Below, one piece after another: positions 1 through 31,170 of a DNA stretch of 31,170 nucleotides. Position numbers and translations under genes: made by a program. The stretch is from the NCBI GenBank assembly GCA_902516225.1, contig CABXXS010000009.1, positions 1-31,170 on the forward strand. The letters run 5' to 3'. The number at the start of each line of letters is the position of its first letter. The stretch's first letter is position 1. The notes under the pieces were generated by a model, which saw only the letters and a program-made list of their open reading frames with translations, was not told the origin of the DNA and searched no databases. Origin of the DNA: Puniceicoccaceae bacterium. Lineage in GTDB: Bacteria; Verrucomicrobiota; Verrucomicrobiae; Opitutales; Coraliomargaritaceae.

Positions 1-1
1 T

Positions 2-178
2 CTATGCTATTTCAATTACGTTTATTCTGGGGAGCGCGTTGGCCGCGCCTTACTCGGATTCGAATTTGAAGATCGTGAACAGTACGGTAAATTTGATCAA
101 GTACTCGACTCTGCTAAACATGCCTTCCGTGACTGCAGGCGCGTTTCTGAAGATACCATGAAACGGATCGTATCCTAG
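2..178 (+). CDS. ilvA: Threonine dehydratase, C-terminal regulatory end (partial)
   Basis: The open frame enters from the left edge and gives 58 residues before TAG at 176-178. It starts around [20 protein letters not shown], a pattern like the ACT-like regulatory domain at the end of biosynthetic threonine ammonia-lyase, where FNYxY is followed by a xxxLLGFE strand. The copy at 24883-25110 shows the residues just upstream, RPGVLAEFL, which is the typical RPGxLxxF opening of an ACT domain. IlvA deaminates threonine to 2-oxobutanoate for isoleucine synthesis and this domain senses isoleucine. The PLP-binding catalytic domain lies outside the window, so another ACT-containing enzyme cannot be excluded. 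Confidence 0.6.
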
Positions 179-245
179 TACGAGTGATACATCATCCACT
201 AATATAACTACGCCTGTTCCATAGCTTATTAATAAAACAAAAATC

Positions 246-272
246 TTGGACTTAGAAAAAAGTCTAAATTTT
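246..272 (+). terminator. Weak hairpin after ilvA, just before the esterase start
   Basis: TTGGACT (246-252) can pair with AGTCTAA (261-267) in RNA, seven pairs including one G-U, around an A-rich loop, followed by ATTTT. It could be a weak terminator of ilvA. Because it ends only a few bases before the esterase ATG, where no clear Shine-Dalgarno is visible, it could also affect translation start. An identical copy lies at 24789-24815. Confidence 0.3.
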
Positions 273-274
273 CA

Positions 275-1498
275 ATGAGATATCCAACTAAGATAGGTGT
301 ATGCATATTTTCGTTATTTAGTCTGACATCACAGGCAAATGTAGAAACCCATCATCTCCCTCAAGAATGGGGGAATCAACTAGCCTACAACGTGTCCGTA
401 CCAGATAGCTATGATAGTCACCTGGACTGGCCTTTGATGCTGTATTTTCACGGTAATGGTGGGCAAGGTACTAACGGCCAAAATAAGCCCCCAAATTCAT
501 CGCTATGGAAAGAAAAAGTGGTCCTTATTGCTCCCCAATCAGGCCCATTAAATAACAATAACTGGTGGCAGAAAGAACAGAGGGAAGCAGCTAAAGAGAT
601 CTTAGATTATGAACTCTCTAGACTAAATGTTAATCCTGATAAAATTATCATTATAGGACAGAGTATGGGTGGTTACGGTAGCTTCCTCTTTGCCAGAGAC
701 TATCCTGAGGTGCCCTCAGCAGTCGTACCAATTTCAGGCGGTTGGGGTAATTTTAATGGTGGCAATGCTTCCACATCTGGATACCCGAGTAATATGGCGC
801 CGTGGAATCATATTCCCTACTGGATTTTCCATGGTAAAAATGACACCACTGTTCGAATCGCCAGTTCAGAACAGGCCTACGATTTGATGACAGAAGATGG
901 TATCCACACAAAATTTACTACTTATATTAATCAGGGCCATAAACCCAGACACCATATATATAATAGCCAAATGTTTTATGATTGGGCTTTTGCTCAAGAT
1001 CGGAATACACCTCATAATTTTCAACTTTGTTTAGAAGAAGATGGCGAAGTTATCGTAGTAGGTTATTTCGAAGAAGGAACGCGTGTAAATATTTCCTCGA
1101 GACAAGCAGACGCTATCAATAAAGAATACTTTAGTGGATGGACCTCTTCTAGTGAAGTTCACTATGAAGACAGCGGAGGAGCCAAAAATACCCTAAGTTA
1201 TCCGAGTGGAAACTTAGGTTTATTCGAGGACGAAAAATCGAGAAATACTAAGTTCATTATGGGTAATTCAGATGCCCGAATAACTGCAAATTATCGCAGA
1301 TTACCAGATGCCACATTATCTATGATAACCCAAGAAACCGCTACAGGCATTCAACTTAATTTTGAAGATAGTGAAGATTTAATAATGATACAAAGCTCTT
1401 ACGATCTAAAGAATTGGACTGATGTGAACTTACAAACATCTCCGCATATAGAGGAGATCGAAGATAAAAAGTTTTTTCGCCTTAAAGTAGTTAATTAA
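275..1498 (+). CDS. Secreted alpha/beta-hydrolase (esterase/peptidase-like)
   Basis: A 407-residue protein with an N-terminal signal peptide (basic MRYPTK, then a hydrophobic run ending near SQA-NV around residue 21), so it is likely exported. Residues about 25-240 form an alpha/beta-hydrolase domain of the kind found in secreted phospholipase/carboxylesterase and prolyl-oligopeptidase-like proteins. The oxyanion-side HGNGG is at 59-63, the nucleophile elbow GQSMGG places Ser130, HGKND gives Asp190 and GH gives His222 (with H226/H227 as alternatives). Residues about 245-407 are a beta-rich tail ending in SYDLKNW and FFRLKVVN, a style of C-terminus common in Verrucomicrobiota secreted proteins. 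The substrate is unknown; polysaccharide ester, lipid ester or peptide are all possible. It lies downstream of ilvA and converges with uvrA. Confidence 0.75.
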   Translation: MRYPTKIGVCIFSLFSLTSQANVETHHLPQEWGNQLAYNVSVPDSYDSHLDWPLMLYFHGNGGQGTNGQNKPPNSSLWKEKVVLIAPQSGPLNNNNWWQKEQREAAKEILDYELSRLNVNPDKIIIIGQSMGGYGSFLFARDYPEVPSAVVPISGGWGNFNGGNASTSGYPSNMAPWNHIPYWIFHGKNDTTVRIASSEQAYDLMTEDGIHTKFTTYINQGHKPRHHIYNSQMFYDWAFAQDRNTPHNFQLCLEEDGEVIVVGYFEEGTRVNISSRQADAINKEYFSGWTSSSEVHYEDSGGAKNTLSYPSGNLGLFEDEKSRNTKFIMGNSDARITANYRRLPDATLSMITQETATGIQLNFEDSEDLIMIQSSYDLKNWTDVNLQTSPHIEEIEDKKFFRLKVVN

Positions 1499-1561
1499 AA
1501 CTTTTATTTTAAAATATATAAGATTCTCCTCAAATAACAAAACATGCCTAAAGGAAAATTG

Positions 1562-4399
1562 TTATAACTCAGCTTGAGTGGGCGTGCCTTCGCCTTGTAA
1601 AAACGTGATGCCCTCCCCTTCGTAAAGTAGATTACCCCCACCAACTCCGCCTTCAGGACCTAACTCTACAATCCAATCCGATAGACGAATAACGTCGAGG
1701 TCATGCTCAATAATAAGAATAGTATTCCCAGCATTTCGTAATTTAAACAGAAGGTCCATTAAGCGTTGAACGTCCAACCAGTGAAGACCCGTGGTTGGCT
1801 CATCGAGGATGTAGAGTGTCTGACCTTGTTGCCGCTTACTGAGCTCCAATGAGAGCTTAACTCGCTGAGCTTCTCCCCCCGAGACTGTGGTAGCTGGCTG
1901 ACCAAGCTTAATGTATCCGAGGCCAACCTCTGCCAAGGTTTGTAACTTTTCGGCAATACGCGGCTGCTTACCGAATACTGTGAGCGCTTCATCCACGCTC
2001 ATTTCTAGGACATCAGCAATACTGTGCCCTTTAAAGCGTACATCGAGGGTCTCTCGGTTATATCGGCGACCATTACAGCTAGGGCATTCGCTGTAGACAT
2101 CAGCCATGAACTGCATATCTAGCTTAATCACCCCATCACCCTTACAACGTTCGCAGCGGCCACCACTTACATTAAAGCTGAATCGATTACGCTTATATCC
2201 TCGTATCTTAGCGATTGAACATTTCGCAAAAAGGTCGCGCAGCTGATCAAAGAGCTTAGTAAAGGTGGCAGGGTTAGAACGTGGACTGCGCCCTATTGGT
2301 GACTGGTCTACTTGTATGACAGAGAGGAAATTATCCAGCCCGGTAATCTTTTTGTGCTTTCCAGGTATAGTCTTCGCGCGATTGAGTTTAAAGGCTGCAG
2401 ATTTAGCCAAGATGTCATTGACCAGCGTACTCTTGCCAGAACCGGAAATACCACAGACCACAGTGAGTAATCCCACAGGAAAACGAACATCGATATTCTT
2501 TAGATTATTTTCGCTGGCTCCTTCGATGCTTAGCCAATCTACTTTTGGCACTAGAGTTTTTGCTCCTTTTTCAATGCGTACTTCTCCACTGAGAAACTTT
2601 CCTGAGCGACTCTGCTTGTCACTAAAGGAATTAACTGGCGTACCTTGATAAATTAACTCACCTCCTTCAGTGCCTGCGGCTGGTCCTAGCTCGATCAAAT
2701 GATCTGCTGCGAGCATAGTCTCTGCATCATGCTCTACTACTACGACGGAGTTACCCCGTTCACGTAATTGTGTTAAAGTTTGGATTAGGCGGCGATTATC
2801 GACCGGATGGAGCCCAATACTTGGCTCGTCGAGCAAGTAGACTACCCCCACGAGCGACATACCAAGTTGTGTAGCCAATCGGACGCGCTGCGCCTCCCCT
2901 CCACTTAGGCTAGAATAGGCGCGGTTCAGAGTCAGATAGCTAAGTCCGACTTCGTTTAGAAAGGAAAGTCGCGAGCCAAGTGCACGGATGGCATCACTTA
3001 CTGGAGCGTATTCAGGGTCATTTTCTAGTGACTCCACAAAAGTCTGAGCTGACTGTAATGACATCTCGAGTAGATCCGTTATAGATTTGCCCTTTATCAG
3101 GACACTAAGACTAGCCCTTTGGAGGCGGTGACCTTGGCAGCTCTCACATAAGCTACTGGTTTGATAGGCCATGAGTCGAGCTCGTAAGCCATCGCTAGAA
3201 GTAGTCCTGCGGATATTCTCAAGATCTGCTAATACACCTTCGAATTGCATTAAGTCAGGCTTAGAATTCCCACCTTTTAGCTTAAAACTAAAAAGTCGCT
3301 CGCCTGTACCATGCACAATTTGGTCGCGAATATCTGATTCGAGTTCATCCCAAGGCAAATTAGGATCAAAGGGTAATTGCTCTGCTAGCTGCTTAAGTGT
3401 CGCATTGTGCCTGATTATCATTTGCTTCGAACCTAGGCGCCACGGTTTGATAGCACCCTTTTTGACACTCAAACTAGGATCGGGCACTATAAGTTCGGCT
3501 TGAAATTGTAAAGTCTCTCCTAGGCCGCCGCATTCTGGGCAAGCACCCTCGGCGTGATTCCAAGAAAAGTGCCGGGGCGAAACGCGCCCATAGACCTCTC
3601 CACATATAACACAAGCAAGACGGTTACTTAGTCGTAGATCGCGCCAGTTATCCCCATCTTCAATTAGTATTACTGCACGGTCTTCGCCCTCACTAAAAGC
3701 AAGATCGAGCGAATCGGCTAAGCGACTACGCTGGTCGGGCTCTAGTACTAAGCGGTCGACAACAATTTCAGCAATAATAGAGGGAGCTTTTGAGTCGATC
3801 AGATCCGGTTCATCAAGTCGTAGTATTTTACCGTTAAGTCTCACACGTTGGAAACCGCGTTGTTGTAAGCGCGGGAGTTCTTCACGAAGTATGGCAGGCT
3901 TAGCTGTCATCCAAGGAGCCAATACCATAAGACGGCTACCTTTTGGTTCGCTGAAAATGCGAGTCAAACAATCGTCCATTGAACGGCGCTGGATAATCCC
4001 TCCATCTTTTGGACAATATGGTGTGCCGCAGACAGCCCAGAGCACACGCGCAAAATCTGCTATCTCGGTCACAGTCGCTACGGTACTTCGAGGATTACCG
4101 CCGGCAGAAGAGCGTTGTTCTAAAGCGATAACCGGTGAAAGGCCTTGAATATAGTCGACATCTGGCCGCGGAATTTGCTCGAGCACCATACGCGCCTTAG
4201 TCGAGAGACTGTCGATGTATTTACGATAGCCTTCCGCATAAATAGTATCAAATGCTAATGAAGACTTACCAGAACCACTGACCCCTGTAATGACTACTAG
4301 TTGATTTCTAGGAATATCCACGCAGATATCCTTAAGATTATGCTCACGAGCACCTTTTACAGAAATAAAATCGCTCAGGGGTGCGTCGGATTTACTCAT
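1562..4399 (-). CDS. uvrA: Excinuclease ABC subunit A
   Basis: UvrA, the damage-sensing ATPase of nucleotide excision repair, which loads UvrB on distorted DNA. At 945 residues it matches the usual length. Both ABC modules are complete. Walker A is GVSGSGKSS at 39-47 and GISGSGKST at 650-658. The signature SGGEAQRV starts at 499 and 840. The Walker B/D-loop regions are [11 protein letters not shown] and [11 protein letters not shown]. Both zinc modules keep their cysteines (C263/C266 with C287/C290; C749/C752 with C772/C775). The ATG at 4397-4399 leads straight into the conserved start of the first module. It is divergent from the glutaredoxin gene across a 123-bp spacer. I found no TGTTC-N4-GAACA-type LexA box there. 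Confidence 0.96.
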
Positions 4400-4522
4400 A
4401 TCTAGTAATAATCTGAAAACATTATGAATGTGAATCTAATGCGCAAGCTTTGGGCAGACAAAGGTAGAATAGACAAAACTTATATTGCCTAAATATGTAC
4501 ATATCTTTAATGATTAACAAAC
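4400..4522. promoter_or_regulatory. Divergent promoter region uvrA / glutaredoxin
   Basis: This spacer separates two divergent genes. It contains a perfect 12-base palindrome ATATGTACATAT at 4493-4504. For the rightward gene, TAGACA (4470-4475) and TATGTA (4494-4499) with an 18-base spacer are a plausible -35/-10 pair, which would put the palindrome over the -10 element, as an operator would lie. This is inference from base pattern alone. The copy is at 20539-20661, with the palindrome at 20557-20568. Confidence 0.35.
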
Positions 4523-4801
4523 ATGAGTAATCAGAATCTACCTATTTTATACATCAAAGCAGGTTGCCCTTGGTGCCATGAAGCACTTTCCTTTTTCAGC
4601 GATCAAGGCATAGATTTAGACATCCAAGACGTGAATAAAAGCGCAAAATATATGGGCGATATGGTGACTCTTACTGGTCAGACTAAAACTCCTACTTTCT
4701 CCTTCGATGACTTCGTAGTAGCTGACTTTGATGTGAGTGAGTTTCTCGCAGCATTAAAAAAATCTCCTCAAATCCGCCAAAGACTGGGTATTAAAGATTA
4801 A
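4523..4801 (+). CDS. Glutaredoxin-like thiol-disulfide protein
   Basis: A 92-residue thioredoxin-fold protein with the redox motif C15-P-W-C18 after the first strand (LPILYIKAGCPWC) and the cis-proline TPT at 56-58. The length and the final helix are glutaredoxin-like. The usual GG-[DS]-D glutathione-binding turn after the third strand is replaced by VADFDVSEF, so whether it uses glutathione is uncertain. It probably reduces protein disulfides in the cytoplasm. It stands alone between uvrA (divergent) and greA (convergent) and is followed by a clear bidirectional hairpin. Confidence 0.85.
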   Translation: MSNQNLPILYIKAGCPWCHEALSFFSDQGIDLDIQDVNKSAKYMGDMVTLTGQTKTPTFSFDDFVVADFDVSEFLAALKKSPQIRQRLGIKD

Positions 4802-4829
4802 GAGGATTAGTAAATATATCTACCAATAA

Positions 4830-4860
4830 AATAGGCGCTCCTTTTAAGGAAGCGCCTATT
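4830..4860. terminator. Bidirectional terminator between glutaredoxin and greA
   Basis: AATAGGCGCTCC (4830-4841) pairs with GGAAGCGCCTATT (4848-4860), leaving one unpaired base and a short T/A-rich loop. The GC-rich stem with AT flanks lies between two convergent genes (stops at 4801 and 4890), as expected for a shared rho-independent terminator. The copy is at 20201-20231. Confidence 0.75.
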
Positions 4861-4889
4861 CGTAAATAAGAGTTTAAGAACGCTAGGAC

Positions 4890-6749
4890 CTACTTAACAT
4901 CCACCCATCGGTCGATACTTAGAACAGTCCACTGCTCTTCACTATCGCCAATTTTCGTCGTGACAGTAGCGCCAGGCTCTTTACCTAGAAGAGCTTGTGC
5001 TAGAGGTGTCTTGTAGGAGAGTACATCATTTTTAGGATCACTGTCCCATGCACCTAGAATAGAGTAACGCTGTTTCTTACTAGTGGTACCTTCCTTAAGT
5101 ACGACGACACTACCGATGCTGACATTCTCTGCAGTCGAATCAGTAAAGTCTGTTACACGAGCGCGAGATAGATCCACTTCGAGTTCATTTTTGCGCGAGA
5201 GAAGAATATCTTGGTCTTGACGGGCCATTTTGTATTCTGAGTTTTCTTTCAAATCACCGTGATCTCGCGCGACTTGGATCGCCACTTTGTTCTCTGGTAT
5301 TTTAACTGATGTGAGTTCTTCATATTCAGCCTTAGCCTTATTGAAGCTCTCCATGGAAACAATAAGAGCTTCTTCTTCTTTATTCTCTTCAACTTGCCCA
5401 GCGAGCAAGCCTTGAACAGAAGGAAATTGTTTTATAAATCTAGCAAGAAGTGACTTCTTCGTCAGATCTTCAAATCCTTGATTGAGAAGGAGAGTCTGCG
5501 CAAGATCATTAGCTGTCTCAACATTAGAGGCTGAGAGAAGATCCGGTATTAATGTGGTATCATCACTCAAAAGATCAGCCAGAGGTATCCGGCGTGTACT
5601 AGCATTCTGCAAAGCTTCGTAGTCGATCGCGTAAAACATCGCTGCCAAAAGGCGCGGAGTTACAAGTGGATCAATGATACTGCTAAACTTCTTAGAGGCA
5701 CGGTTTTTGACCACCCAAAAAAGAAGTGGACCCTTTATTGTCTGCTCATTAAGCCAACGGTCCAGGCAGTAACTTATGCGATCCTCCATCTCTTGCTCGA
5801 GCATGAAGTTAATACACTCACTAGTAAATTTACCACTCGAATTACGCAGAAGGTCTTCGACCATGCTGTGCCATTTTTCAGGGTAAGTGCGACTAATTAA
5901 GTCTAGGTAGCGCTTAAAATATTGCGCGGGTAAATCAGCCGCAAGTTGAGAGTAGTCGTTAGTCGCATCAAGTATGGATGCAGAAGACGGCTCTAATGAT
6001 TCTACATCCTCATGAAGATCACGCGCTAGATTGTTACGTACCCAGACACCATGTAAACGGTCTGCTTGACTGAGACTTTTTGCATGAGCAATCGCTTCAG
6101 TAAGTTCTTCAAGAATGGCAGGCATCTCTTCGCGAATAATCGAAATATTCTCCGATAGAGAGTAAAGCTTTTCTCCTAGCTCAATTTTCTGTTTCGAATT
6201 TTTTGTAGCATGAAACTGCTCGAGAATCTCTTGCTCTGGTTTCACTGGTTCGTCGCGGTAGATATAGGGATCAGTCTTCTTTATTGGCACGCCAATCCTA
6301 GGATCTTTAACAAGTAGCTTTTTAGTCGCGGTCCACCACTTCTTATATTTTATCGGTCCAATCACGCGAGCGAGGAGGCGTTCGATCTCAGAAGCCATCA
6401 TGGCTTGATCGTCACTGGCCGCGATAATCTCACAGATTAAGTCAGCTGGCTTCTTTTTGACCATTTCCTCGATCACTTCTAATTCAGTACGTGAGCGTAC
6501 AAGAATATCGCTTGGCTTCAGGATATTAAGCTTGTCTACGCAAAAGGCAGGTGCCATTGCGTGTCCGTCTTTGCCATCCTCGAAATCAATAATCAGACGA
6601 TCGTCTGCAGCGTTATAATCCACAATTTTACCAAAACCCCAACTATGGTGCAGGCAGTAGTTTCCTGGTACCATAGTATCAAGCTTCGCACGATGCGGAG
6701 CTAATTTAGGGTTTTTTTCGATGAGAGCGTCTATGGCCTCTTTATTCAT
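4890..6749 (-). CDS. greA: GreA/GreB-family elongation factor with long N-terminal extension
   Basis: Of 619 residues, only the last ~154 (from about 466) form a normal GreA. They comprise a coiled coil with the tip sequence GDLKENSEY, keeping the acidic pair D499 and E502 that stimulates transcript cleavage in backtracked RNA polymerase, then an FKBP-like domain that binds the polymerase (SIGSVVVLKE onward). Residues 1-60 (NYCLHHSWGFGKIVDYN, then RLIIDFEDG) look like a small beta-barrel of the Tudor/CarD kind. About 70-460 is mostly helical and unlike standard GreA, which is ~158 residues long. The fused layout is, to my knowledge, typical of Verrucomicrobiota. It is divergent from rsmB with a spacer of only ~53 bp. 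Confidence 0.88.
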   Translation of the reverse strand: MNKEAIDALIEKNPKLAPHRAKLDTMVPGNYCLHHSWGFGKIVDYNAADDRLIIDFEDGKDGHAMAPAFCVDKLNILKPSDILVRSRTELEVIEEMVKKKPADLICEIIAASDDQAMMASEIERLLARVIGPIKYKKWWTATKKLLVKDPRIGVPIKKTDPYIYRDEPVKPEQEILEQFHATKNSKQKIELGEKLYSLSENISIIREEMPAILEELTEAIAHAKSLSQADRLHGVWVRNNLARDLHEDVESLEPSSASILDATNDYSQLAADLPAQYFKRYLDLISRTYPEKWHSMVEDLLRNSSGKFTSECINFMLEQEMEDRISYCLDRWLNEQTIKGPLLFWVVKNRASKKFSSIIDPLVTPRLLAAMFYAIDYEALQNASTRRIPLADLLSDDTTLIPDLLSASNVETANDLAQTLLLNQGFEDLTKKSLLARFIKQFPSVQGLLAGQVEENKEEEALIVSMESFNKAKAEYEELTSVKIPENKVAIQVARDHGDLKENSEYKMARQDQDILLSRKNELEVDLSRARVTDFTDSTAENVSIGSVVVLKEGTTSKKQRYSILGAWDSDPKNDVLSYKTPLAQALLGKEPGATVTTKIGDSEEQWTVLSIDRWVDVK

Positions 6750-6802
6750 AATGATTGCTTATAATAGTCGTAAACTGTTTAGTATGTACTGTTTTTCTAC
6801 CA
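6750..6802. promoter_or_regulatory. Divergent promoter region greA / rsmB
   Basis: Between the greA start (6749) and the chosen rsmB ATG (6803) lies a perfect TATAAT at 6760-6765 on the plus strand, a good -10 candidate for rsmB. No convincing -35 box precedes it. The spacer is too short for much else, so the two promoters probably overlap. Confidence 0.35.
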
Positions 6803-8101
6803 ATGAGAAGTATTAAGTTTAGCTTATCGAAAAAGAGCACATCAGCCTGGGATGCTGCTGTAATTCTGACGGAGGCCTATTTAAGGAGCGAATGCAAGGC
6901 CGATCAGTTACTCGAAGAGCTCAATGAGGAGAACATAGGCAATCGCCGCGCAACCTGCCAATCTCTATTTCTTGGCGCTCTTCGCCACGGGCATCGTACG
7001 CGCGCTGCGCTTAAAAGTTTACTTCGCAAGAAGGCTAAGCCGAGTGTCGAAGCCATTCTATTAGTCACCGCTTACGAACTAATTGATTCAGATAGCGATC
7101 GCTCTCCTAAAATTATTCACTATGCAGTCGAGCGTAGTAAAGCATTGGTCAATCGTTTTGAGCAGGGTTTTCTCAATGCTGTCTTACGTAAACTACCCGA
7201 AGCCCTCGCTCTAATTAGCAAAAACGATACTCCGGCTGCCTATTACAGTCACCCGGATTGGCTGGTCGCTCGCTGGCGAAAGGAATTCCCCAAAACGTAT
7301 TCTAGCCTGCTAGAATGGAATCAACTCATACCTCCAATGTATCTTAAGATCTACGATCCAAAGATTGTTCTTCCCGATGGATTGGAGGCAACTACTTGGC
7401 CGCAGTTTTACAGAATCACTAGTCAAGTTTCTTGGAAGAACGATCTTCATCCCCTACTTAACCAAGGGACCGCTTACATCAAAGATCCATCTACTCGGCT
7501 CGCCCCCGTACTTCTTGACCCACAGCCCGAGGAATCTATTCTAGATCTTTGCGCTGCCCCAGGAGGTAAAGCATACGATATGTCACACGCAATGGATGGC
7601 CGCGGACAGATTGTAGCCGTAGACCTGCCTGGCAAGCGTATCAAACGATTAAGGGAAAATTTAGAATCAATACAATCGCCAGATCTAAATTGTGAAATCA
7701 TTGAATCCGACCTTCTTAAACTTTGCCCAGTAATTCTTGAAAAGCGTAACCTACCGACCGAATACGACGCGGTTATGCTCGATGCTCCCTGCTCGAATAC
7801 TGGGGTTATTCAGCGACGCACTGACGTAAAATGGCGCCTACAAAAGCAAGATATCAAGTCCTGCGTGGAGCTTCAAAGCAAACTGCTAGTCGCCGCATCT
7901 ACCTACGTAAAGGTTGGGGGGCGCGTCGTTTACAGCACTTGCAGTATTGAAGCTGCCGAAAACCAGGAAGTAGTGGCCCGCTTTTTAGAAAGTGCTTCTG
8001 GAAAATATTTTAAATTGAGAAATTCAGTAGTCAGTTATCCTTGGGAGACCGGTCACGATGGCGCAGGTGCCTTTTTTCTAGAGCGGACAAAAAAGAGTTA
8101 G
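6803..8101 (+). CDS. rsmB: 16S rRNA (cytosine-5-)-methyltransferase RsmB
   Basis: RsmB methylates C5 of a cytosine in 16S rRNA (C967 in E. coli). The 432-residue protein has the expected two parts: an N-terminal NusB-like helical RNA-binding domain (about 1-130) and a Rossmann methyltransferase domain. The SAM-binding motif DLCAAPGGK begins at 248. The two catalytic-type cysteines are in DAPCS (C330) and YSTCS (C380). An upstream in-frame TTG at 6755 would add 16 residues, but they are unlike the family and would run over the putative -10 element, so I prefer the ATG at 6803. This is the only complete copy in the window. Confidence 0.9.
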   Translation: MRSIKFSLSKKSTSAWDAAVILTEAYLRSECKADQLLEELNEENIGNRRATCQSLFLGALRHGHRTRAALKSLLRKKAKPSVEAILLVTAYELIDSDSDRSPKIIHYAVERSKALVNRFEQGFLNAVLRKLPEALALISKNDTPAAYYSHPDWLVARWRKEFPKTYSSLLEWNQLIPPMYLKIYDPKIVLPDGLEATTWPQFYRITSQVSWKNDLHPLLNQGTAYIKDPSTRLAPVLLDPQPEESILDLCAAPGGKAYDMSHAMDGRGQIVAVDLPGKRIKRLRENLESIQSPDLNCEIIESDLLKLCPVILEKRNLPTEYDAVMLDAPCSNTGVIQRRTDVKWRLQKQDIKSCVELQSKLLVAASTYVKVGGRVVYSTCSIEAAENQEVVARFLESASGKYFKLRNSVVSYPWETGHDGAGAFFLERTKKS

Positions 8102-8157
8102 TTTAGTAGACTTTTGACACCCGCCAGATCATTGAGCTCTGAATTTTAGATTATATT

Positions 8158-9219: not shown

Positions 9220-9278
9220 ACAAATATAATACCCATTTTTAATAGTAGAGTTTACTAAGAAGACGCGAGAGTACCAAC

Positions 9279-10265: not shown

Positions 10266-10272
10266 GATAAAA

Positions 10273-10971: not shown

Positions 10972-11010
10972 GGAATTTGATATTTGATTTGAGTCCCCAG
11001 TAGTTCAAAA

Positions 11011-20171: not shown

Positions 20172-20200
20172 GTCCTAGCGTTCTTAAACTCTTATTTACG

Positions 20201-20231
20201 AATAGGCGCTTCCTTAAAAGGAGCGCCTATT
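20201..20231. terminator. Bidirectional terminator, second copy
   Basis: Reverse complement of the hairpin at 4830-4860, again between the convergent greA and glutaredoxin copies. Confidence 0.75.
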
Positions 20232-20259
20232 TTATTGGTAGATATATTTACTAATCCTC

Positions 20260-20538: not shown

Positions 20539-20661
20539 GTTTGTTAATCATTAAAGATATGTACATATTTAGGCAATATAAGTTTTGTCTATTCTACCTT
20601 TGTCTGCCCAAAGCTTGCGCATTAGATTCACATTCATAATGTTTTCAGATTATTACTAGAT
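20539..20661. promoter_or_regulatory. Divergent promoter region glutaredoxin / uvrA, second copy
   Basis: Exact mirror of 4400-4522. The 12-base palindrome is at 20557-20568. No base differs from the first copy across the whole spacer. Confidence 0.35.
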
Positions 20662-23499
20662 ATGAGTAAATCCGACGCACCCCTGAGCGATTTTATTTCT
20701 GTAAAAGGTGCTCGTGAGCATAATCTTAAGGATATCTGCGTGGATATTCCTAGAAATCAACTAGTAGTCATTACAGGGGTCAGTGGTTCTGGTAAGTCTT
20801 CATTAGCATTTGATACTATTTATGCGGAAGGCTATCGTAAATACATCGACAGTCTCTCGACTAAGGCGCGTATGGTGCTCGAGCAAATTCCGCGGCCAGA
20901 TGTCGACTATATTCAAGGCCTTTCACCGGTTATCGCTTTAGAACAACGCTCTTCTGCCGGCGGTAATCCTCGAAGTACCGTAGCGACTGTGACCGAGATA
21001 GCAGATTTTGCGCGTGTGCTCTGGGCTGTCTGCGGCACACCATATTGTCCAAAAGATGGAGGGATTATCCAGCGCCGTTCAATGGACGATTGTTTGACTC
21101 GCATTTTCAGCGAACCAAAAGGTAGCCGTCTTATGGTATTGGCTCCTTGGATGACAGCTAAGCCTGCCATACTTCGTGAAGAACTCCCGCGCTTACAACA
21201 ACGCGGTTTCCAACGTGTGAGACTTAACGGTAAAATACTACGACTTGATGAACCGGATCTGATCGACTCAAAAGCTCCCTCTATTATTGCTGAAATTGTT
21301 GTCGACCGCTTAGTACTAGAGCCCGACCAGCGTAGTCGCTTAGCCGATTCGCTCGATCTTGCTTTTAGTGAGGGCGAAGACCGTGCAGTAATACTAATTG
21401 AAGATGGGGATAACTGGCGCGATCTACGACTAAGTAACCGTCTTGCTTGTGTTATATGTGGAGAGGTCTATGGGCGCGTTTCGCCCCGGCACTTTTCTTG
21501 GAATCACGCCGAGGGTGCTTGCCCAGAATGCGGCGGCCTAGGAGAGACTTTACAATTTCAAGCCGAACTTATAGTGCCCGATCCTAGTTTGAGTGTCAAA
21601 AAGGGTGCTATCAAACCGTGGCGCCTAGGTTCGAAGCAAATGATAATCAGGCACAATGCGACACTTAAGCAGCTAGCAGAGCAATTACCCTTTGATCCTA
21701 ATTTGCCTTGGGATGAACTCGAATCAGATATTCGCGACCAAATTGTGCATGGTACAGGCGAGCGACTTTTTAGTTTTAAGCTAAAAGGTGGGAATTCTAA
21801 GCCTGACTTAATGCAATTCGAAGGTGTATTAGCAGATCTTGAGAATATCCGCAGGACTACTTCTAGCGATGGCTTACGAGCTCGACTCATGGCCTATCAA
21901 ACCAGTAGCTTATGTGAGAGCTGCCAAGGTCACCGCCTCCAAAGGGCTAGTCTTAGTGTCCTGATAAAGGGCAAATCTATAACGGATCTACTCGAGATGT
22001 CATTACAGTCAGCTCAGACTTTTGTGGAGTCACTAGAAAATGACCCTGAATACGCTCCAGTAAGTGATGCCATCCGTGCACTTGGCTCGCGACTTTCCTT
22101 TCTAAACGAAGTCGGACTTAGCTATCTGACTCTGAACCGCGCCTATTCTAGCCTAAGTGGAGGGGAGGCGCAGCGCGTCCGATTGGCTACACAACTTGGT
22201 ATGTCGCTCGTGGGGGTAGTCTACTTGCTCGACGAGCCAAGTATTGGGCTCCATCCGGTCGATAATCGCCGCCTAATCCAAACTTTAACACAATTACGTG
22301 AACGGGGTAACTCCGTCGTAGTAGTAGAGCATGATGCAGAGACTATGCTCGCAGCAGATCATTTGATCGAGCTAGGACCAGCCGCAGGCACTGAAGGAGG
22401 TGAGTTAATTTATCAAGGTACGCCAGTTAATTCCTTTAGTGACAAGCAGAGTCGCTCAGGAAAGTTTCTCAGTGGAGAAGTACGCATTGAAAAAGGAGCA
22501 AAAACTCTAGTGCCAAAAGTAGATTGGCTAAGCATCGAAGGAGCCAGCGAAAATAATCTAAAGAATATCGATGTTCGTTTTCCTGTGGGATTACTCACTG
22601 TGGTCTGTGGTATTTCCGGTTCTGGCAAGAGTACGCTGGTCAATGACATCTTGGCTAAATCTGCAGCCTTTAAACTCAATCGCGCGAAGACTATACCTGG
22701 AAAGCACAAAAAGATTACCGGGCTGGATAATTTCCTCTCTGTCATACAAGTAGACCAGTCACCAATAGGGCGCAGTCCACGTTCTAACCCTGCCACCTTT
22801 ACTAAGCTCTTTGATCAGCTGCGCGACCTTTTTGCGAAATGTTCAATCGCTAAGATACGAGGATATAAGCGTAATCGATTCAGCTTTAATGTAAGTGGTG
22901 GCCGCTGCGAACGTTGTAAGGGTGATGGGGTGATTAAGCTAGATATGCAGTTCATGGCTGATGTCTACAGCGAATGCCCTAGCTGTAATGGTCGCCGATA
23001 TAACCGAGAGACCCTCGATGTACGCTTTAAAGGGCACAGTATTGCTGATGTCCTAGAAATGAGCGTGGATGAAGCGCTCACAGTATTCGGTAAGCAGCCG
23101 CGTATTGCCGAAAAGTTACAAACCTTGGCAGAGGTTGGCCTCGGATACATTAAGCTTGGTCAGCCAGCTACCACAGTCTCGGGGGGAGAAGCTCAGCGAG
23201 TTAAGCTCTCATTGGAGCTCAGTAAGCGGCAACAAGGTCAGACACTCTACATCCTCGATGAGCCAACCACGGGTCTTCACTGGTTGGACGTTCAACGCTT
23301 AATGGACCTTCTGTTTAAATTACGAAATGCTGGGAATACTATTCTTATTATTGAGCATGACCTCGACGTTATTCGTCTATCGGATTGGATTGTAGAGTTA
23401 GGTCCTGAAGGCGGAGTTGGTGGGGGTAATCTACTTTACGAAGGGGAGGGCATCACGTTTTTACAAGGCGAAGGCACGCCCACTCAAGCTGAGTTATAA
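20662..23499 (+). CDS. uvrA: Excinuclease ABC subunit A, second copy
   Basis: Full-length 945-residue copy of 1562-4399 with no amino-acid difference. Every minor reading frame within the gene is also preserved, so there are no indels and probably no silent changes. Both Walker motifs, both signatures and both zinc modules are intact. Confidence 0.96.
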
Positions 23500-23562
23500 C
23501 AATTTTCCTTTAGGCATGTTTTGTTATTTGAGGAGAATCTTATATATTTTAAAATAAAAGTT

Positions 23563-24786
23563 TTAATTAACTACTTTAAGGCGAAAAAACTTTTTATCTT
23601 CGATCTCCTCTATATGCGGAGATGTTTGTAAGTTCACATCAGTCCAATTCTTTAGATCGTAAGAGCTTTGTATCATTATTAAATCTTCACTATCTTCAAA
23701 ATTAAGTTGAATGCCTGTAGCGGTTTCTTGGGTTATCATAGATAATGTGGCATCTGGTAATCTGCGATAATTTGCAGTTATTCGGGCATCTGAATTACCC
23801 ATAATGAACTTAGTATTTCTCGATTTTTCGTCCTCGAATAAACCTAAGTTTCCACTCGGATAACTTAGGGTATTTTTGGCTCCTCCGCTGTCTTCATAGT
23901 GAACTTCACTAGAAGAGGTCCATCCACTAAAGTATTCTTTATTGATAGCGTCTGCTTGTCTCGAGGAAATATTTACACGCGTTCCTTCTTCGAAATAACC
24001 TACTACGATAACTTCGCCATCTTCTTCTAAACAAAGTTGAAAATTATGAGGTGTATTCCGATCTTGAGCAAAAGCCCAATCATAAAACATTTGGCTATTA
24101 TATATATGGTGTCTGGGTTTATGGCCCTGATTAATATAAGTAGTAAATTTTGTGTGGATACCATCTTCTGTCATCAAATCGTAGGCCTGTTCTGAACTGG
24201 CGATTCGAACAGTGGTGTCATTTTTACCATGGAAAATCCAGTAGGGAATATGATTCCACGGCGCCATATTACTCGGGTATCCAGATGTGGAAGCATTGCC
24301 ACCATTAAAATTACCCCAACCGCCTGAAATTGGTACGACTGCTGAGGGCACCTCAGGATAGTCTCTGGCAAAGAGGAAGCTACCGTAACCACCCATACTC
24401 TGTCCTATAATGATAATTTTATCAGGATTAACATTTAGTCTAGAGAGTTCATAATCTAAGATCTCTTTAGCTGCTTCCCTCTGTTCTTTCTGCCACCAGT
24501 TATTGTTATTTAATGGGCCTGATTGGGGAGCAATAAGGACCACTTTTTCTTTCCATAGCGATGAATTTGGGGGCTTATTTTGGCCGTTAGTACCTTGCCC
24601 ACCATTACCGTGAAAATACAGCATCAAAGGCCAGTCCAGGTGACTATCATAGCTATCTGGTACGGACACGTTGTAGGCTAGTTGATTCCCCCATTCTTGA
24701 GGGAGATGATGGGTTTCTACATTTGCCTGTGATGTCAGACTAAATAACGAAAATATGCATACACCTATCTTAGTTGGATATCTCAT
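23563..24786 (-). CDS. Secreted alpha/beta-hydrolase, second copy
   Basis: Identical 407-residue copy of the gene at 275-1498, including the signal peptide and the putative Ser130/Asp190/His222 triad. The hairpin before its start is also preserved (24789-24815). Confidence 0.75.
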   Translation of the reverse strand: MRYPTKIGVCIFSLFSLTSQANVETHHLPQEWGNQLAYNVSVPDSYDSHLDWPLMLYFHGNGGQGTNGQNKPPNSSLWKEKVVLIAPQSGPLNNNNWWQKEQREAAKEILDYELSRLNVNPDKIIIIGQSMGGYGSFLFARDYPEVPSAVVPISGGWGNFNGGNASTSGYPSNMAPWNHIPYWIFHGKNDTTVRIASSEQAYDLMTEDGIHTKFTTYINQGHKPRHHIYNSQMFYDWAFAQDRNTPHNFQLCLEEDGEVIVVGYFEEGTRVNISSRQADAINKEYFSGWTSSSEVHYEDSGGAKNTLSYPSGNLGLFEDEKSRNTKFIMGNSDARITANYRRLPDATLSMITQETATGIQLNFEDSEDLIMIQSSYDLKNWTDVNLQTSPHIEEIEDKKFFRLKVVN

Positions 24787-24882
24787 TGAAAATTTAGACT
24801 TTTTTCTAAGTCCAAGATTTTTGTTTTATTAATAAGCTATGGAACAGGCGTAGTTATATTAGTGGATGATGTATCACTCGTA

Positions 24883-25110
24883 CTAGGATACGATCCGTTT
24901 CATGGTATCTTCAGAAACGCGCCTGCAGTCACGGAAGGCATGTTTAGCAGAGTCGAGTACTTGATCAAATTTACCGTACTGTTCACGATCTTCAAATTCG
25001 AATCCGAGTAAGGCGCGGCCAACGCGCTCCCCAGAATAAACGTAATTGAAATAGCATAGATTACTGTGAGGGCTCAGTACGCGAAGAAATTCTGCGAGGA
25101 CACCAGGGCG
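24883..25110 (-). CDS. ilvA: ilvA 3' end, truncated at joint 2
   Basis: Carries the same 58 C-terminal residues as positions 2-178 plus 17 or 18 more upstream residues, beginning [17 protein letters not shown]. These give the opening of the ACT-like domain and strengthen the IlvA assignment. The frame is then cut at 25106-25110, where sequence from the opposite-strand hypothetical gene begins. The bases GGGCG there encode the Arg-Pro of RPG on the ilvA side and also belong to the hypothetical gene, so they are a likely microhomology. Confidence 0.6.
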
Positions 25111-25112
25111 TA
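25100..25112. other. Joint 2 (ilvA to hypothetical gene, head-to-tail joint)
   Basis: Left of it is ilvA, right of it the reverse complement of 13235 downward. GGGCG (25106-25110) is part of the hypothetical gene and also fits the expected Arg-Pro codons of ilvA. Both sides are in the same (minus) orientation relative to the original order, so the joint links the two ends of a 13,280-bp unit directly. Confidence 0.9.
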
Positions 25113-25115
25113 AAA

Positions 25116-25460
25116 ATGCCCGAACCCAAGGCTGAGCCTGAATCTAATCAAGAGGCTAAGGAAGAAGCTGCGCAAAATACTGATTCTACTGATGGAGAGG
25201 CGATTGATCCAGAGATAATTGGTGATGATAGTAGTAGCGCAGGTGGTGTAAGTGTAGATGTCGATGCAATAATGCGTCCCGGATCATTAGTAAGTGGCAC
25301 GGTTCGTTTCAGTGATGGTGTTAGTCTTGGTTGGCAACTCAGTGCTAGTGGGCAATTGGGCCTTATCCCTGGGGAGGACCCAGAATACCGACCAGACCCA
25401 GAGGATGTTCAGTCTTTCCAAACTCAATTGGAAGAAGTGCTACGCAAAAAGGGCTTATAG
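25116..25460 (+). pseudogene. Hypothetical gene, 5'-truncated copy at joint 2
   Basis: Holds the last 114 residues of the 165-residue protein at 12881-13378, from [10 protein letters not shown]. The first ~48 residues, including the HTH-like module and the original start, are replaced by ilvA sequence on the opposite strand. An ATG at 25116 could in principle start the remnant, but it has lost its promoter and spacer. Confidence 0.9.
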
Positions 25461-25524
25461 GATTTTTTTCAGCTCACGCGTGTACACAGATCTGTTGCCC
25501 AAAATCGGGCTAAGTTAGTCACTG

Positions 25525-26406
25525 TCATTTGACTGAATCTTTTGGATCAAGCGCGTCTCGCAGACCATCGCCTAAAAAGTTTAGGGCAAATATAGTGAGC
25601 GAGAACAAGAGTGCGGGAAAAATCAGCATCCATGGGTAAATATCGAGCTTGACCGCGCCTTCGTTGATTAAAATTCCCCATGAACTCATGGGTGCTTGCA
25701 CGCCTAAGCCGAGAAAGCTAATGACTGATTCCAGCAAAATCACGGCAGGGATTGTAAGTGTCGCGAAGACGATTACTGGACTAAGTAGGTTGGGTAAAAT
25801 ATGACGAATAAGAATTCGCTGCGTGGGTACGCCACAAACAATAGCTGCTTCAATAAAAGTCTGCTCTTTGAGCGCTTTAGTCTGCCCGCGAACAATACGA
25901 GCCATGGTAAGCCATTCGACCGCACCGATAGCGAGAAATATCAGTAGAATACTCCTACCTAGTAGTACAGTTAATAGAATTACGATTATGGTAAACGGCA
26001 ATGCGTAGAGCGTATCTATAATACGCATCATTATCGTCTCTACTTGGCCACCGTAATAGCCTGCTATCATCCCGTAAATTATACCAATAAAGAGTGCTAC
26101 TGTAGTCGCAGCAAAGCCTACTCCAATTGAAATGCGTCCGCCAATTAGAGTGCGGACTAGAATATCTCGCCCCAATTCATCAGTACCGAACCAATGCTCC
26201 CATGATGGTGGTTGTGCTCCATAGGCTAGATCAATTGTTTCTAGCGCATAAGGCACGTAAGACGGTCCGATTAGGCACGATAGGGCAACGATGGCAAACA
26301 ACCCCCCTCCTATGAGAGACATCGGATTTAAACAGAGGCGTTCCCAAGCGTCGCGACCAAGTGAACGCGCTTGCATAGCAGCTTTTTCCCGTTCCATTTT
26401 AGTCAT
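25525..26406 (-). CDS. oppC: Peptide ABC transporter permease OppC, second copy
   Basis: Identical copy of 11935-12816, overlapping oppB by the same 8 bases. As in the first copy, no ATPase or binding-protein gene is adjacent. Confidence 0.92.
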   Translation of the reverse strand: MTKMEREKAAMQARSLGRDAWERLCLNPMSLIGGGLFAIVALSCLIGPSYVPYALETIDLAYGAQPPSWEHWFGTDELGRDILVRTLIGGRISIGVGFAATTVALFIGIIYGMIAGYYGGQVETIMMRIIDTLYALPFTIIVILLTVLLGRSILLIFLAIGAVEWLTMARIVRGQTKALKEQTFIEAAIVCGVPTQRILIRHILPNLLSPVIVFATLTIPAVILLESVISFLGLGVQAPMSSWGILINEGAVKLDIYPWMLIFPALLFSLTIFALNFLGDGLRDALDPKDSVK

Positions 26407-27316
26407 GGCGCGTGCGAGGGTTCATCCATAACTGGACCAGGTCTACGATTAGATTTAGAATCAGAATTAAAACGGCGTAGAAAAGTACTGTGCCCATTAC
26501 CATAGTACTGTCGCGGTTGAACGCTGAATTCACGAAGAAGCTGCCAAGTCCAGGTATGAAAAAGATTGTCTCGACTACGAACGACCCGCTGATGAGTCCT
26601 GCGACCGCTGGTCCCAAGTAGGCAACCACTGGGTAGAGTGCTGTGCGTAGCGCGTGCCGCAGTATGATAACTCGTCCTTTTAGGCCCTTAGCCTTAGCGG
26701 TTCGAATATAGTCCATTCGCATCACATCTAACATACCACTTCGTGATAACCGTGCGATGTAAGCCGCATAAAAGAGTCCTAGTGTTATAGTTGGCAAGAC
26801 ACGGTCGCCCGGATGATTCCAACCAGATGGATTGAACCAACCTAGTTCCATGCTAAAGACCAAAATTAAAATCGGTCCTAGGACAAAGGAGGGCAGGCAG
26901 ATGCCGACCATAGCTAGGCTCATGAGTGCGCTTTCTGAAGGTTTCTGGTGTTTTATCGCGGCGATCACCCCGATTGGTGTGCCTAGCGCCAACGCGAATA
27001 ACAGAGCGTAAAATCCAAGCTCTAAAGATACTGGAAAACTTTGAATGATGATCTCATCTACATCCCAGCCCGCATACTTGTAGGAGGGTCCAAAATTACC
27101 CTGTAATCGCTGGCTAATAAAGCGAAAGTATTGCTCTTGAATTGGGAGATCTAGGCCGTAGTGGGCATTTATTAGAGATTGAACTTCTTCACTTATATCC
27201 TTCTCGGTGTCGAAAGGACCACCAGGGATAAGTTGGAGCAGGATAAAAGTTGCTGTCGCGATCACCCATAGCGTAGGGATCGCTTGGAGTAGGCGTTTTA
27301 TTATTAATAAGTGCAT
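26399..27316 (-). CDS. oppB: Peptide ABC transporter permease OppB, second copy
   Basis: Identical copy of 11025-11942, with its Shine-Dalgarno preserved at 27326-27330. Confidence 0.9.
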   Translation of the reverse strand: MHLLIIKRLLQAIPTLWVIATATFILLQLIPGGPFDTEKDISEEVQSLINAHYGLDLPIQEQYFRFISQRLQGNFGPSYKYAGWDVDEIIIQSFPVSLELGFYALLFALALGTPIGVIAAIKHQKPSESALMSLAMVGICLPSFVLGPILILVFSMELGWFNPSGWNHPGDRVLPTITLGLFYAAYIARLSRSGMLDVMRMDYIRTAKAKGLKGRVIILRHALRTALYPVVAYLGPAVAGLISGSFVVETIFFIPGLGSFFVNSAFNRDSTMVMGTVLFYAVLILILNLIVDLVQLWMNPRTRHD

Positions 27317-27369
27317 CGCTAAAGACTCCTTTTTGAACTACTGGGGACTCAAATCAAATATCAAATTCC

Positions 27370-28068
27370 ATGTTCGACCTTGGAACTTCTTTTACCAAAC
27401 TTATTGTTATGTTTGAATTCCCTATTCATGTAGTCGATTTTGAGGGTAGTCGCCAAAGTGGAGTCGTCGAGTATGGTTGCGTAACTTTGGAGCAGGGCGA
27501 GCTTGGAAAATCGTATACTCGTATTTGTGCTCCAGTTGGTAAAATTAGTAAATTAGATCACGTTCAACATGGTATTACCGAGTCCGACGCAGAGCAAGAA
27601 GCACCTTTTACTGCTGAGTGGTCGCTATTTGCTGGTTTGCGAGAGACTGGCCTCTTTTGCGCTCATAACTCTACCGTGGAGGAAGGCTTTCTTCGCGCAG
27701 TCTGGCCCTTTCCCCGAAACTCTCCTCACTTTTTGGAATCGGGCTTACAAACTGCCACATGGGGTCCTTGGTTGGATACGCTTCATTTATATCGCCGTAT
27801 TTATCCACATTTGGGCAGTTACAAGCTGGAAGACCTTGTTCAACTATTTGATCTACAACCCCTCTTAAATAAGCATGCTGCAAGCTTGTGCTCGATGGAT
27901 CGTTCTAACTATCATTGCGCGCTTTACGATGCCCTCGGTTCGGCGCTACTGCTACAGCGACTAGGAGAAGAGCCCAGCTTGGAATCAGCTAGTCAACACT
28001 GGTTTTTTATGCAAAGTGCTGCCTCCGACGATATCCATAAAGCTAGAGGACAGCAGGAACTATTATAA
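27370..28068 (+). CDS. DEDDh-type exonuclease, second copy
   Basis: Identical copy of 10273-10971, with the same ambiguity of start (internal ATG at 27409) and the same Glu in motif II. The motif II substitution is thus not a sequencing error confined to one copy, although the two copies may not be independent. Confidence 0.75.
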   Translation: MFDLGTSFTKLIVMFEFPIHVVDFEGSRQSGVVEYGCVTLEQGELGKSYTRICAPVGKISKLDHVQHGITESDAEQEAPFTAEWSLFAGLRETGLFCAHNSTVEEGFLRAVWPFPRNSPHFLESGLQTATWGPWLDTLHLYRRIYPHLGSYKLEDLVQLFDLQPLLNKHAASLCSMDRSNYHCALYDALGSALLLQRLGEEPSLESASQHWFFMQSAASDDIHKARGQQELL

Positions 28069-28075
28069 TTTTATC

Positions 28076-29062
28076 ATGCCCGACCTTCCAAAAATTGTTT
28101 ATTTCGGTTCAGATCCAATCTGTCTTCCCGGCCTTCAATATCTCTTTGAAAAAGGGCGAGATCTTTGTGTTCTTGCAGCAGTTGTCTCGCAGCCAGACCG
28201 TCGCCAAGGGCGGGGTAAGAAACTGCAGCAAAATGCGGTCGCAGCATATGCATCCGCTCAATCGATACCGCTTCTGCAACCAGAAAAACCCGATATTGCA
28301 CTGGGTGAATGGCTGCGCAAGGAGTCTATCACACTCGCCTTTGTAATGGCATATGGTCATTATTTGCCTAAGACTGTACGCGAAGCACCTAAGCATGGAC
28401 TGCTCAATTTTCATGGCTCGGTTTTGCCTGATTATAGAGGGGCATCACCGGTGGAGACGGCGATCGCTATGGGTGATTCTGAGACTGGTGTCTGCCTTAT
28501 GCAGGTTATCAAAGAATTGGATGCTGGTCCGGTCGCCGAATGCGAACATATTGAGATAGAGTCTACAGAAACTGGTACGACTCTTCGTGCGAAAGTAGGC
28601 CAAGCAGTCGTATCTTTACTTGGCCGTAACTTGAAAACCTCTCTGCATGGTGGACTTGAGTTTGACTCGCAAGACGCAGAGCGTGCTACATTTTGCCGTA
28701 AAATTTCAAAAGAAGATGGGGCACTTAATTTCTGGCAAAGCGCAACTACTATCGATGCTCGCCTTCGTGCTTTCACTCCATGGCCGGGGGCTTTCTTCGA
28801 CCACGAAGGTATGAGAATTAAAGTGGGCCGCTGCTCGGTTAGAACAGAGGGCAAATCTGGTTTGCCCGGTACGGTATTAAGAGTGGGTAAAACACTCGAT
28901 ATTTCCACTACTGACGGCGTGCTTTGTATCCACGAACTTCAGCGCCCTAGTGGACGCCTCTTGCCCGTATCGGATTTTCTTAGAGGCTACCAGATAGTTG
29001 TTGGAGATGTGTTACCAAGTGTGCCGAGTGTGCCTCTTCTAGTGTCTAACTCAGGTGTATAA
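28076..29062 (+). CDS. fmt: Methionyl-tRNA formyltransferase, second copy
   Basis: Identical copy of 9279-10265, N111/H113/D149 intact, starting 7 bases after the exonuclease stop. Confidence 0.93.
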   Translation: MPDLPKIVYFGSDPICLPGLQYLFEKGRDLCVLAAVVSQPDRRQGRGKKLQQNAVAAYASAQSIPLLQPEKPDIALGEWLRKESITLAFVMAYGHYLPKTVREAPKHGLLNFHGSVLPDYRGASPVETAIAMGDSETGVCLMQVIKELDAGPVAECEHIEIESTETGTTLRAKVGQAVVSLLGRNLKTSLHGGLEFDSQDAERATFCRKISKEDGALNFWQSATTIDARLRAFTPWPGAFFDHEGMRIKVGRCSVRTEGKSGLPGTVLRVGKTLDISTTDGVLCIHELQRPSGRLLPVSDFLRGYQIVVGDVLPSVPSVPLLVSNSGV

Positions 29063-29121
29063 GTTGGTACTCTCGCGTCTTCTTAGTAAACTCTACTATT
29101 AAAAATGGGTATTATATTTGT

Positions 29122-30183
29122 TTAGGCTAGTTTTTTCGCTCTCCAGCTTTTAAATATTGGGAATAGAATCAGAGCTGCGAGCAGTAGGCCGCAGCTATGT
29201 TGCCAAAGTTTGGGCTGAAATATTTCGTGGGTGTGGACGATCGTAAGAGTTGGTTCGCTTTTTATCGCTGCATTAAAGAGCCACCCAGCACACCAAGCTA
29301 CTCCAAGTAGACTAATTAAATATATACTGGTAGCTTTGCGCCCGAGCATCTTCCAAGCAGTTGCGATGGTGGCAGTATTAGTAGCAGGTCCAGTAATAAG
29401 AAAGACCAGAACAGCGCCAGGTGAAAGCCCAGTTACAATGAGGGCATAAGCCATAGGTATTGAGGCTGTCGCGCAGACGTAGAGGGGTATACTAATTATT
29501 GTAGCTAATAGAAATGAGCTAGTTCCATTACTCAGAGGACCAGTTAGCATATTCTCAGGCATAACAGTGACTATTAGTCCTGATAGTAGGAGGCCGGCTG
29601 TAAGTGAATTTGCTAGATCAGTTGGTAGGGTGATGAAACCATAACGTAAGGCTTGCAAAAGGCTCCGTTTTTTCAGGCCAGGTTCTCGTAAGGAGCAATT
29701 ATTAGTCTCATTTCTCGTATCTATGAGAGGAGTTAGTTTAGGGTCATTTGTTTCCGGTGCAGTAGCTTCTTTACAGAAAAGTTCAATTAGATAGCCCGTT
29801 AAGACGCCACAAAGGAAAGCTACAAGAACTCTTACTGCGGCGAAGATAGAGCCCAGAAGAGCGTAAGTAGCCATGATACTATCTACACCAGTTTGTGGGG
29901 TAGAACTTAGAAATGAGGCAGTCGCCCCTCGAGAGGCGCCGCTCCTGCGTAGTGAGGCTGCAACTGGTATGACCGAACAGGAACAAAGTGGAATGGGCAC
30001 ACCCATTAAGCTTGCTTTAACTACACTGCCCAGACCCGGAATTCCCAAGCAGCGTTGAACAAGTTCGGGCTTAATTAGAACGTGTAAAGTACCTGCAAGA
30101 CCGAAACCGAATAGGAGATAGGGGGCTAACTCAGTTACAAAACGCCAAGTATTAGCAAAATATATTAATAAATCAGAAAGCAT
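29122..30183 (-). CDS. ArsP/YraQ-family permease, second copy
   Basis: Identical copy of 8158-9219, with the CSCS motif intact. Confidence 0.8.
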   Translation of the reverse strand: MLSDLLIYFANTWRFVTELAPYLLFGFGLAGTLHVLIKPELVQRCLGIPGLGSVVKASLMGVPIPLCSCSVIPVAASLRRSGASRGATASFLSSTPQTGVDSIMATYALLGSIFAAVRVLVAFLCGVLTGYLIELFCKEATAPETNDPKLTPLIDTRNETNNCSLREPGLKKRSLLQALRYGFITLPTDLANSLTAGLLLSGLIVTVMPENMLTGPLSNGTSSFLLATIISIPLYVCATASIPMAYALIVTGLSPGAVLVFLITGPATNTATIATAWKMLGRKATSIYLISLLGVAWCAGWLFNAAIKSEPTLTIVHTHEIFQPKLWQHSCGLLLAALILFPIFKSWRAKKLA

Positions 30184-30239
30184 AATATAATCTAAAATTC
30201 AGAGCTCAATGATCTGGCGGGTGTCAAAAGTCTACTAAA

Positions 30240-31170
30240 CTAACTCTTTTTTGTCCGCTCTAGAAAAAAGGCACCTGCGCCATCGTGACCGGTCTCCCAA
30301 GGATAACTGACTACTGAATTTCTCAATTTAAAATATTTTCCAGAAGCACTTTCTAAAAAGCGGGCCACTACTTCCTGGTTTTCGGCAGCTTCAATACTGC
30401 AAGTGCTGTAAACGACGCGCCCCCCAACCTTTACGTAGGTAGATGCGGCGACTAGCAGTTTGCTTTGAAGCTCCACGCAGGACTTGATATCTTGCTTTTG
30501 TAGGCGCCATTTTACGTCAGTGCGTCGCTGAATAACCCCAGTATTCGAGCAGGGAGCATCGAGCATAACCGCGTCGTATTCGGTCGGTAGGTTACGCTTT
30601 TCAAGAATTACTGGGCAAAGTTTAAGAAGGTCGGATTCAATGATTTCACAATTTAGATCTGGCGATTGTATTGATTCTAAATTTTCCCTTAATCGTTTGA
30701 TACGCTTGCCAGGCAGGTCTACGGCTACAATCTGTCCGCGGCCATCCATTGCGTGTGACATATCGTATGCTTTACCTCCTGGGGCAGCGCAAAGATCTAG
30801 AATAGATTCCTCGGGCTGTGGGTCAAGAAGTACGGGGGCGAGCCGAGTAGATGGATCTTTGATGTAAGCGGTCCCTTGGTTAAGTAGGGGATGAAGATCG
30901 TTCTTCCAAGAAACTTGACTAGTGATTCTGTAAAACTGCGGCCAAGTAGTTGCCTCCAATCCATCGGGAAGAACAATCTTTGGATCGTAGATCTTAAGAT
31001 ACATTGGAGGTATGAGTTGATTCCATTCTAGCAGGCTAGAATACGTTTTGGGGAATTCCTTTCGCCAGCGAGCGACCAGCCAATCCGGGTGACTGTAATA
31101 GGCAGCCGGAGTATCGTTTTTGCTAATTAGAGCGAGGGCTTCGGGTAGTTTACGTAAGACAGCATTGAGA
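30240..31170 (-). CDS. rsmB: rsmB, third occurrence, running off the window end
   Basis: Matches the last ~310 codons of rsmB (left positions 7171-8101), with the SAM motif and both catalytic-type cysteines. Nothing in the visible part is broken. It reaches the window edge 45 bp before the position where the other right-hand fragment of rsmB (17932-18258) begins in the original gene. If the 13,280-bp unit continues, this gene would be completed beyond the edge. Confidence 0.93.
   Translation of the reverse strand, partial: LNAVLRKLPEALALISKNDTPAAYYSHPDWLVARWRKEFPKTYSSLLEWNQLIPPMYLKIYDPKIVLPDGLEATTWPQFYRITSQVSWKNDLHPLLNQGTAYIKDPSTRLAPVLLDPQPEESILDLCAAPGGKAYDMSHAMDGRGQIVAVDLPGKRIKRLRENLESIQSPDLNCEIIESDLLKLCPVILEKRNLPTEYDAVMLDAPCSNTGVIQRRTDVKWRLQKQDIKSCVELQSKLLVAASTYVKVGGRVVYSTCSIEAAENQEVVARFLESASGKYFKLRNSVVSYPWETGHDGAGAFFLERTKKS

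Follow-up and report, generated by a model that had tools for sequence, protein, structure and literature searches.

Self-looping contigs are a known kind of artefact of de Bruijn assemblers, and SPAdes in its --sc mode finishes at k = 55. Among the MDA chimeras described by Lasken and Stockwell (2007), 406 of 475 were inverted (direct joints made up 15%), priming involved complementary sequences of 2–21 nt, and chimeras that joined sites more than 10 kb apart showed microhomology in only 34.8% (inverted) or 27.6% (direct) of cases (PMC1855051); a second report places the peak of chimera overlap length at 6 nt, with most overlaps of 5–8 nt (PMC4595205). The Bigelow single-cell workflow combines assembly by SPAdes (--careful --sc) with the subsequent removal of 100 bp from each contig end (PMC5519541, PMC9771814).

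The stretch of DNA analysed here (the window, 31,170 bp in all) shares with the Phi29/MDA chimeras described in those reports an inverted joint with an intervening deletion, exact microhomology (7 and 6 bp) and a second joint in the same stretch. Unlike most chimeras presented there, its joined sites lie 10.8 and 13.3 kb apart and its second joint is direct; a further difference is that a loop is closed by the pair of joints within a single contig. As would be expected of SCGC/Bigelow assemblies prepared as outlined in the workflow descriptions above, both ends of the window show an offset of 45 bp, which is 100 minus 55. A near relative, AG-457-L13, carries an AG- name (a prefix that we take to be the Bigelow laboratory's naming style), and the window itself probably belongs to an assembly of this type. 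Like self-looping de Bruijn contigs, it prints shared unitigs repeatedly along a path that is forced and without exit (here as modelled); unlike simple self-looping contigs, it involves three unitigs and two vertices crossed in both orientations, yielding a permuted inverted arm and not a simple terminal repeat.

We conclude that the bacterium almost certainly does not carry this very large inverted repeat, which we read as an artefact of two copying errors during amplification plus a repeated walk by the assembler. With high confidence, we attribute it to a pair of MDA-type chimeras formed on a single fragment of ~18 kb, which closed the graph so that a whole-genome-amplified (most likely single-cell) assembly passed the same 13 kb twice.

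Repeat structure of the window

An earlier, sequence-only reading had described two inverted arms, one of them permuted, around a single-copy centre, and self-BLAST and exact string comparison bear this out to the base: positions 17936–25060 are the reverse complement of 1–7125 (7,125 bp) and positions 25106–31170 that of 7171–13235 (6,065 bp), each gapless and at 100% identity. The two passages through the arms are thus identical to each other, as a looped de Bruijn contig requires. The same reading took the right arm to be the left arm minus 45 bp; its block coordinates stand, and the description can be refined to two single-copy 45-mers in the window, one at 7126–7170 (g1) and one at 25061–25105 (X, reverse strand). 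The absence of a right-hand copy of g1 is explained by the window stopping 45 bp before a branch vertex.

The first passage begins with segment A (1–7125, forward), which holds the end of a gene that we presume to be ilvA-like, an esterase-like gene, uvrA (reverse strand), a glutaredoxin gene, a gene for a GreA-domain protein (reverse) and the 5' part of rsmB. It continues through g1 (forward), 45 bp within rsmB, into segment B (7171–13235, forward), with the remainder of rsmB, an ArsP_1/SO_0444-type permease gene, fmt (reverse), a 232-aa protein (reverse), two Opp-type (oligopeptide-type) permease genes and the 3' part of a gene for a 165-aa protein (reverse). Segment C (13236–17935, forward), the single-copy centre and the seed unitig of the modelled walk below, contains the start of the 165-aa gene (reverse), a peptidylprolyl isomerase gene, gatC (reverse), pheT (reverse) and the 3' part of pheS (reverse). 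The second passage, on the reverse strand, runs through A again (17936–25060), X (25061–25105) and B again (25106–31170), and the modelled path ends 100 bp beyond the last if k = 55.

Two joints mark the second passage. J1, at 17935/17936, connects pheS to rsmB in inverted orientation over a span of 10,810 bp, and J2, at 25105/25106, connects the ilvA-like gene to the 165-aa gene in direct order over a span of 13,280 bp. The right-hand order therefore breaks four genes, as had been noted from the sequence: pheS and rsmB at J1, and the 165-aa and ilvA-like genes at J2.

Gene order in related genomes and sequence at the joints

The two top matches of the GreA-domain protein (among the best 80 of 246 confirmed, in named genome contigs) were to uncultured Opitutae bacterium ERR599050_bin.126, a metagenome-assembled genome (MAG) whose contig is G001:C35 by identical sequence, and to NODE_1 of Puniceicoccaceae bacterium AG-457-L13, a single-cell genome whose contig is likewise G012:C1. 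In AG-457-L13 (G012), the left-arm order lies in one contig and is collinear except for two gene-sized absences: the esterase-like gene (275–1498), where matches ending at 247 and starting at 1574 sit 42 bp apart, and the SO_0444-type Cu/Zn efflux/ArsP_1 permease gene (8158–9219), where the matches of 1574–8094 and 9199–17935 overlap by 15 bp. In G001, the stretch is split across the ends of three contigs, an arrangement that fits the left-arm order without proving it. Segment C is 96% identical to G001 over 13769–17935, and 9199–17935 matches G012 at 93%. X lies directly upstream of position 1 in both genomes (G001 agrees with it at 45 of 45 bases and G012 at 40 of 45), and in G001 a 514-aa ilvA-like open frame runs across X and position 1. 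The sequence-only reading was right to treat the left order as the ancestral one and the right arm as derived from it. To judge by its sequence, X plus 1–17935 (17,980 bp) is a single unremarkable piece of chromosome from a marine bacterium of the Puniceicoccaceae type; nothing requires the right arm to be one real molecule, as long as its two joints exist.

Both joints connect sequences that are not neighbours in G001 or G012, and each shows microhomology when these relatives (92–97% identical) are used as stand-ins for the bacterium's own lost sequence. At J1, pheS continues past 17935 in both relatives as GCATAGTCCTGATC, with its frame staying open, and the window continues as GCATAGTGAATAAT, the reverse complement of 7125 and the bases before it; the 7-bp GCATAGT (17936–17942, forward) is common to the reverse complement of 7119–7125 and the pheS continuation in both relatives. 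At J2, read on the left-arm strand, TTTTTACGCCC (ending at 13235) is joined to X, and the sequence preceding X in G001 and G012 is GAACGCCC; the 6-bp ACGCCC (25106–25111, reverse strand, corresponding to 13230–13235) also stands directly upstream of X in both. For random breakpoints at this base composition, the chance of at least 7 shared bases at J1 is 4.1 × 10−4 and that of at least 6 at J2 is 1.4 × 10−3. We regard both as false joints, inverted at J1 and in direct order at J2. Overlaps this short and exact might also be left by an assembler error involving no chimeric molecule, in which tips were closed on 6–7 bp by gap-closing; we consider this very unlikely, since such overlaps fall far under the k values that assemblers usually employ (at least 21), and the error would have to join each of the two tips back into one and the same stretch. 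Whether by assembler error or by MDA chimera, the duplication is not real.

All 14 genus genomes matched positions 1–17935. Among the matches listed for them, no stretch longer than 218 bp was matched twice in one genome, and the stretch encoding the GreA-domain protein appeared in 13 of the 14 (G006 being the exception) and never twice. Counted by eye, second uvrA-like matches covered 203 bp in G001 and less than 100 bp in the other genomes, and twice-listed contig-to-contig overlaps in pheT/pheS covered 218 bp (G005), 106 bp (G008) and 23 bp (G004). A duplication common to the relatives was rejected on the shortness of these double matches. The window's own arrangement was not seen among the matches listed for the 14 genomes, a search that informs order more than copy number, on which it is weak, because MAGs collapse identical copies.

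A modelled walk through a closed assembly graph

To relate the two joints to the form of the contig, we modelled path extension on a de Bruijn graph (this was not a SPAdes run, and the model's constraints do not extend to long-read assemblies). Because the input sequence was taken from the window itself, closure of the graph is built in, and the model predicts only where the path ends and in which order it passes the segments. X plus 1–17935 with the two joints gives a graph without tips that comprises, disregarding orientation, three unitigs (X–A, g1–B and C, measuring 7,225, 6,165 and 4,810 bp at k = 55) and two branch vertices; because both joints lead back into one stretch, the graph closes and has no exit. 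A walk from C finds a single next unitig at each step (forwards the reverse complements of X–A and then g1–B; backwards g1–B and then X–A), after which only a used unitig remains. At k = 55 this walk spans 31,370 bp, and removing 100 bp from each end yields the window letter for letter, with the window ending 45 bp from each branch vertex, where the loop closes. The cut needed was k + 45 at both ends for all six k values tried, so that the window is likewise recovered with k = 21, 33, 77, 99 and 127 (after trims of 66, 78, 122, 144 and 172 bp, respectively); the walk does not fix k, and the pairing of 55 with 100 was chosen because 100 bp is the published trim. Walks seeded at the other two unitigs gave ~13.3 kb and not the window.

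Six simulated sources (k = 55, 100-bp trim) served as a control, and only one of them, the closed graph, returned the window exactly. Covering the left flank gave 24,950 bp, covering the right flank 17,842 bp and covering both 17,787 bp; a chromosome in which unique random sequence flanked the full 31 kb on both sides gave 17,690 bp, and the same chromosome with X and g1 added gave 17,780 bp. Within the model, the long permuted contig thus requires that no flanking sequence be present in the graph, which is impossible for a chromosome and possible for an isolated amplified fragment.

These controls bear directly on a rival reading, in which the permuted inverted repeat is a genuine recent duplication in the bacterial chromosome. 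Such a duplication would accommodate a repeat held at 100% identity, and short microhomology can also serve template switching in nature, yet we judge it extremely improbable: flanks make the modelled graph branch, so that the trimmed centre-seeded contig falls to 17,690 or 17,780 bp instead of 31,170; the window ends just where the loop closes; four genes, pheS included, are broken at the joints; and the matches listed for the 14 genus genomes contain no long double match. Of the two options that the sequence-only reading had offered, a recent amplification is unsupported, and a chimeric assembly is favoured by the microhomology that two relatives reveal at both joints, by the left-arm order of single-cell genome AG-457-L13 and by the letter-for-letter walk. 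Natural microhomology-mediated template switching within the cell might instead have given rise to a foldback molecule of ~18 kb that lacked chromosomal flanks and was captured by single-cell sequencing, a course of events to which we assign very little probability.

Under the preferred reading of two MDA-type chimeras, a chromosomal stretch of ~18 kb (from about −50 to 17942) would have been amplified by phi29 polymerase. The 3' end at 17942 (...GCATAGT) would have annealed by foldback to 7119–7125 of the strand it belonged to and been extended, creating the inverted J1, and the 3' end at about −50 (...GGGCGT) would have re-primed at 13230–13235, creating J2. The resulting graph, with three unitigs, two branch vertices and no exit, would force the path from C in both directions; the assembler would have halted on meeting a used unitig, so that A and B were printed twice, and the contig ends would then have been trimmed. 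The end offsets point to a whole-genome-amplified template; phi29 as the enzyme and an amplified fragment ending at the joints are the probable particulars on that side, and on the other an assembler that behaved like the model, a k of 55 paired with a trim of 100 bp and the corresponding laboratory pipeline are probable.

When the AG-457-L13 assembly was compared with itself (47 contigs, 1,162,151 bases, with C18 lacking 63 bases and C48 left out), it contained no artefact of this kind, only repeats of 30–101 bp at an identity of at least 97%, indicating that such loops do not occur in every single-cell assembly of this type. An equal distance from each contig end to a branch vertex (trim minus k) may offer a simple, sequence-only test by which trimmed single-cell assemblies can be checked for looped contigs; the present contig is the one case to which it was applied.

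Gene content and gene counts

The gene content described above is ordinary. For uvrA, fmt, the GreA-domain gene and the opp genes, all doubled in the window, a single copy of each is the best reading, their doubling is no evidence of gene amplification, and the repeat should stay out of gene-dosage and rearrangement catalogues.

Fifteen proteins of the window were scanned (10 with Pfam and 9 with NCBIfam, 4 of these with both), and no replication, integration or mobility family scored above the cut-off. This bears on a further alternative, that a real extrachromosomal molecule existed beside the chromosome, for example a foldback element or the 13,280-bp circle (A–g1–B–X) into which J2 alone would close the sequence. 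Against such a molecule, besides the family scan, stand the lack of megablast matches among plasmid and phage records, the separate explanation that J1 would need and the MDA-type microhomology at both joints, and we hold it to be most improbable. A plasmid or phage origin of the sequence was likewise rejected, as positions 1–17935 had no megablast match in either collection.

Three of the proteins merit separate mention. The 165-aa protein (12881–13378, reverse strand) has a weak, partial match to an IS630 transposase model (19.4 bits against a cut-off of 100), which, as a guess, may come from a shared helix-turn-helix. Pfam gives no match for the 232-aa open frame (10273–10971, reverse), and this frame overlaps the listed start of fmt. 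The 619-aa GreA-domain protein (4890–6749, reverse) carries its GreA/GreB domains at the C-terminus, its first 463 residues having no Pfam match; relatives of this protein were found at 246 places in named genomes, and nearly all of the best 80 of these 246 have titles that name Opitutia, Verrucomicrobia or a group inside one of these.
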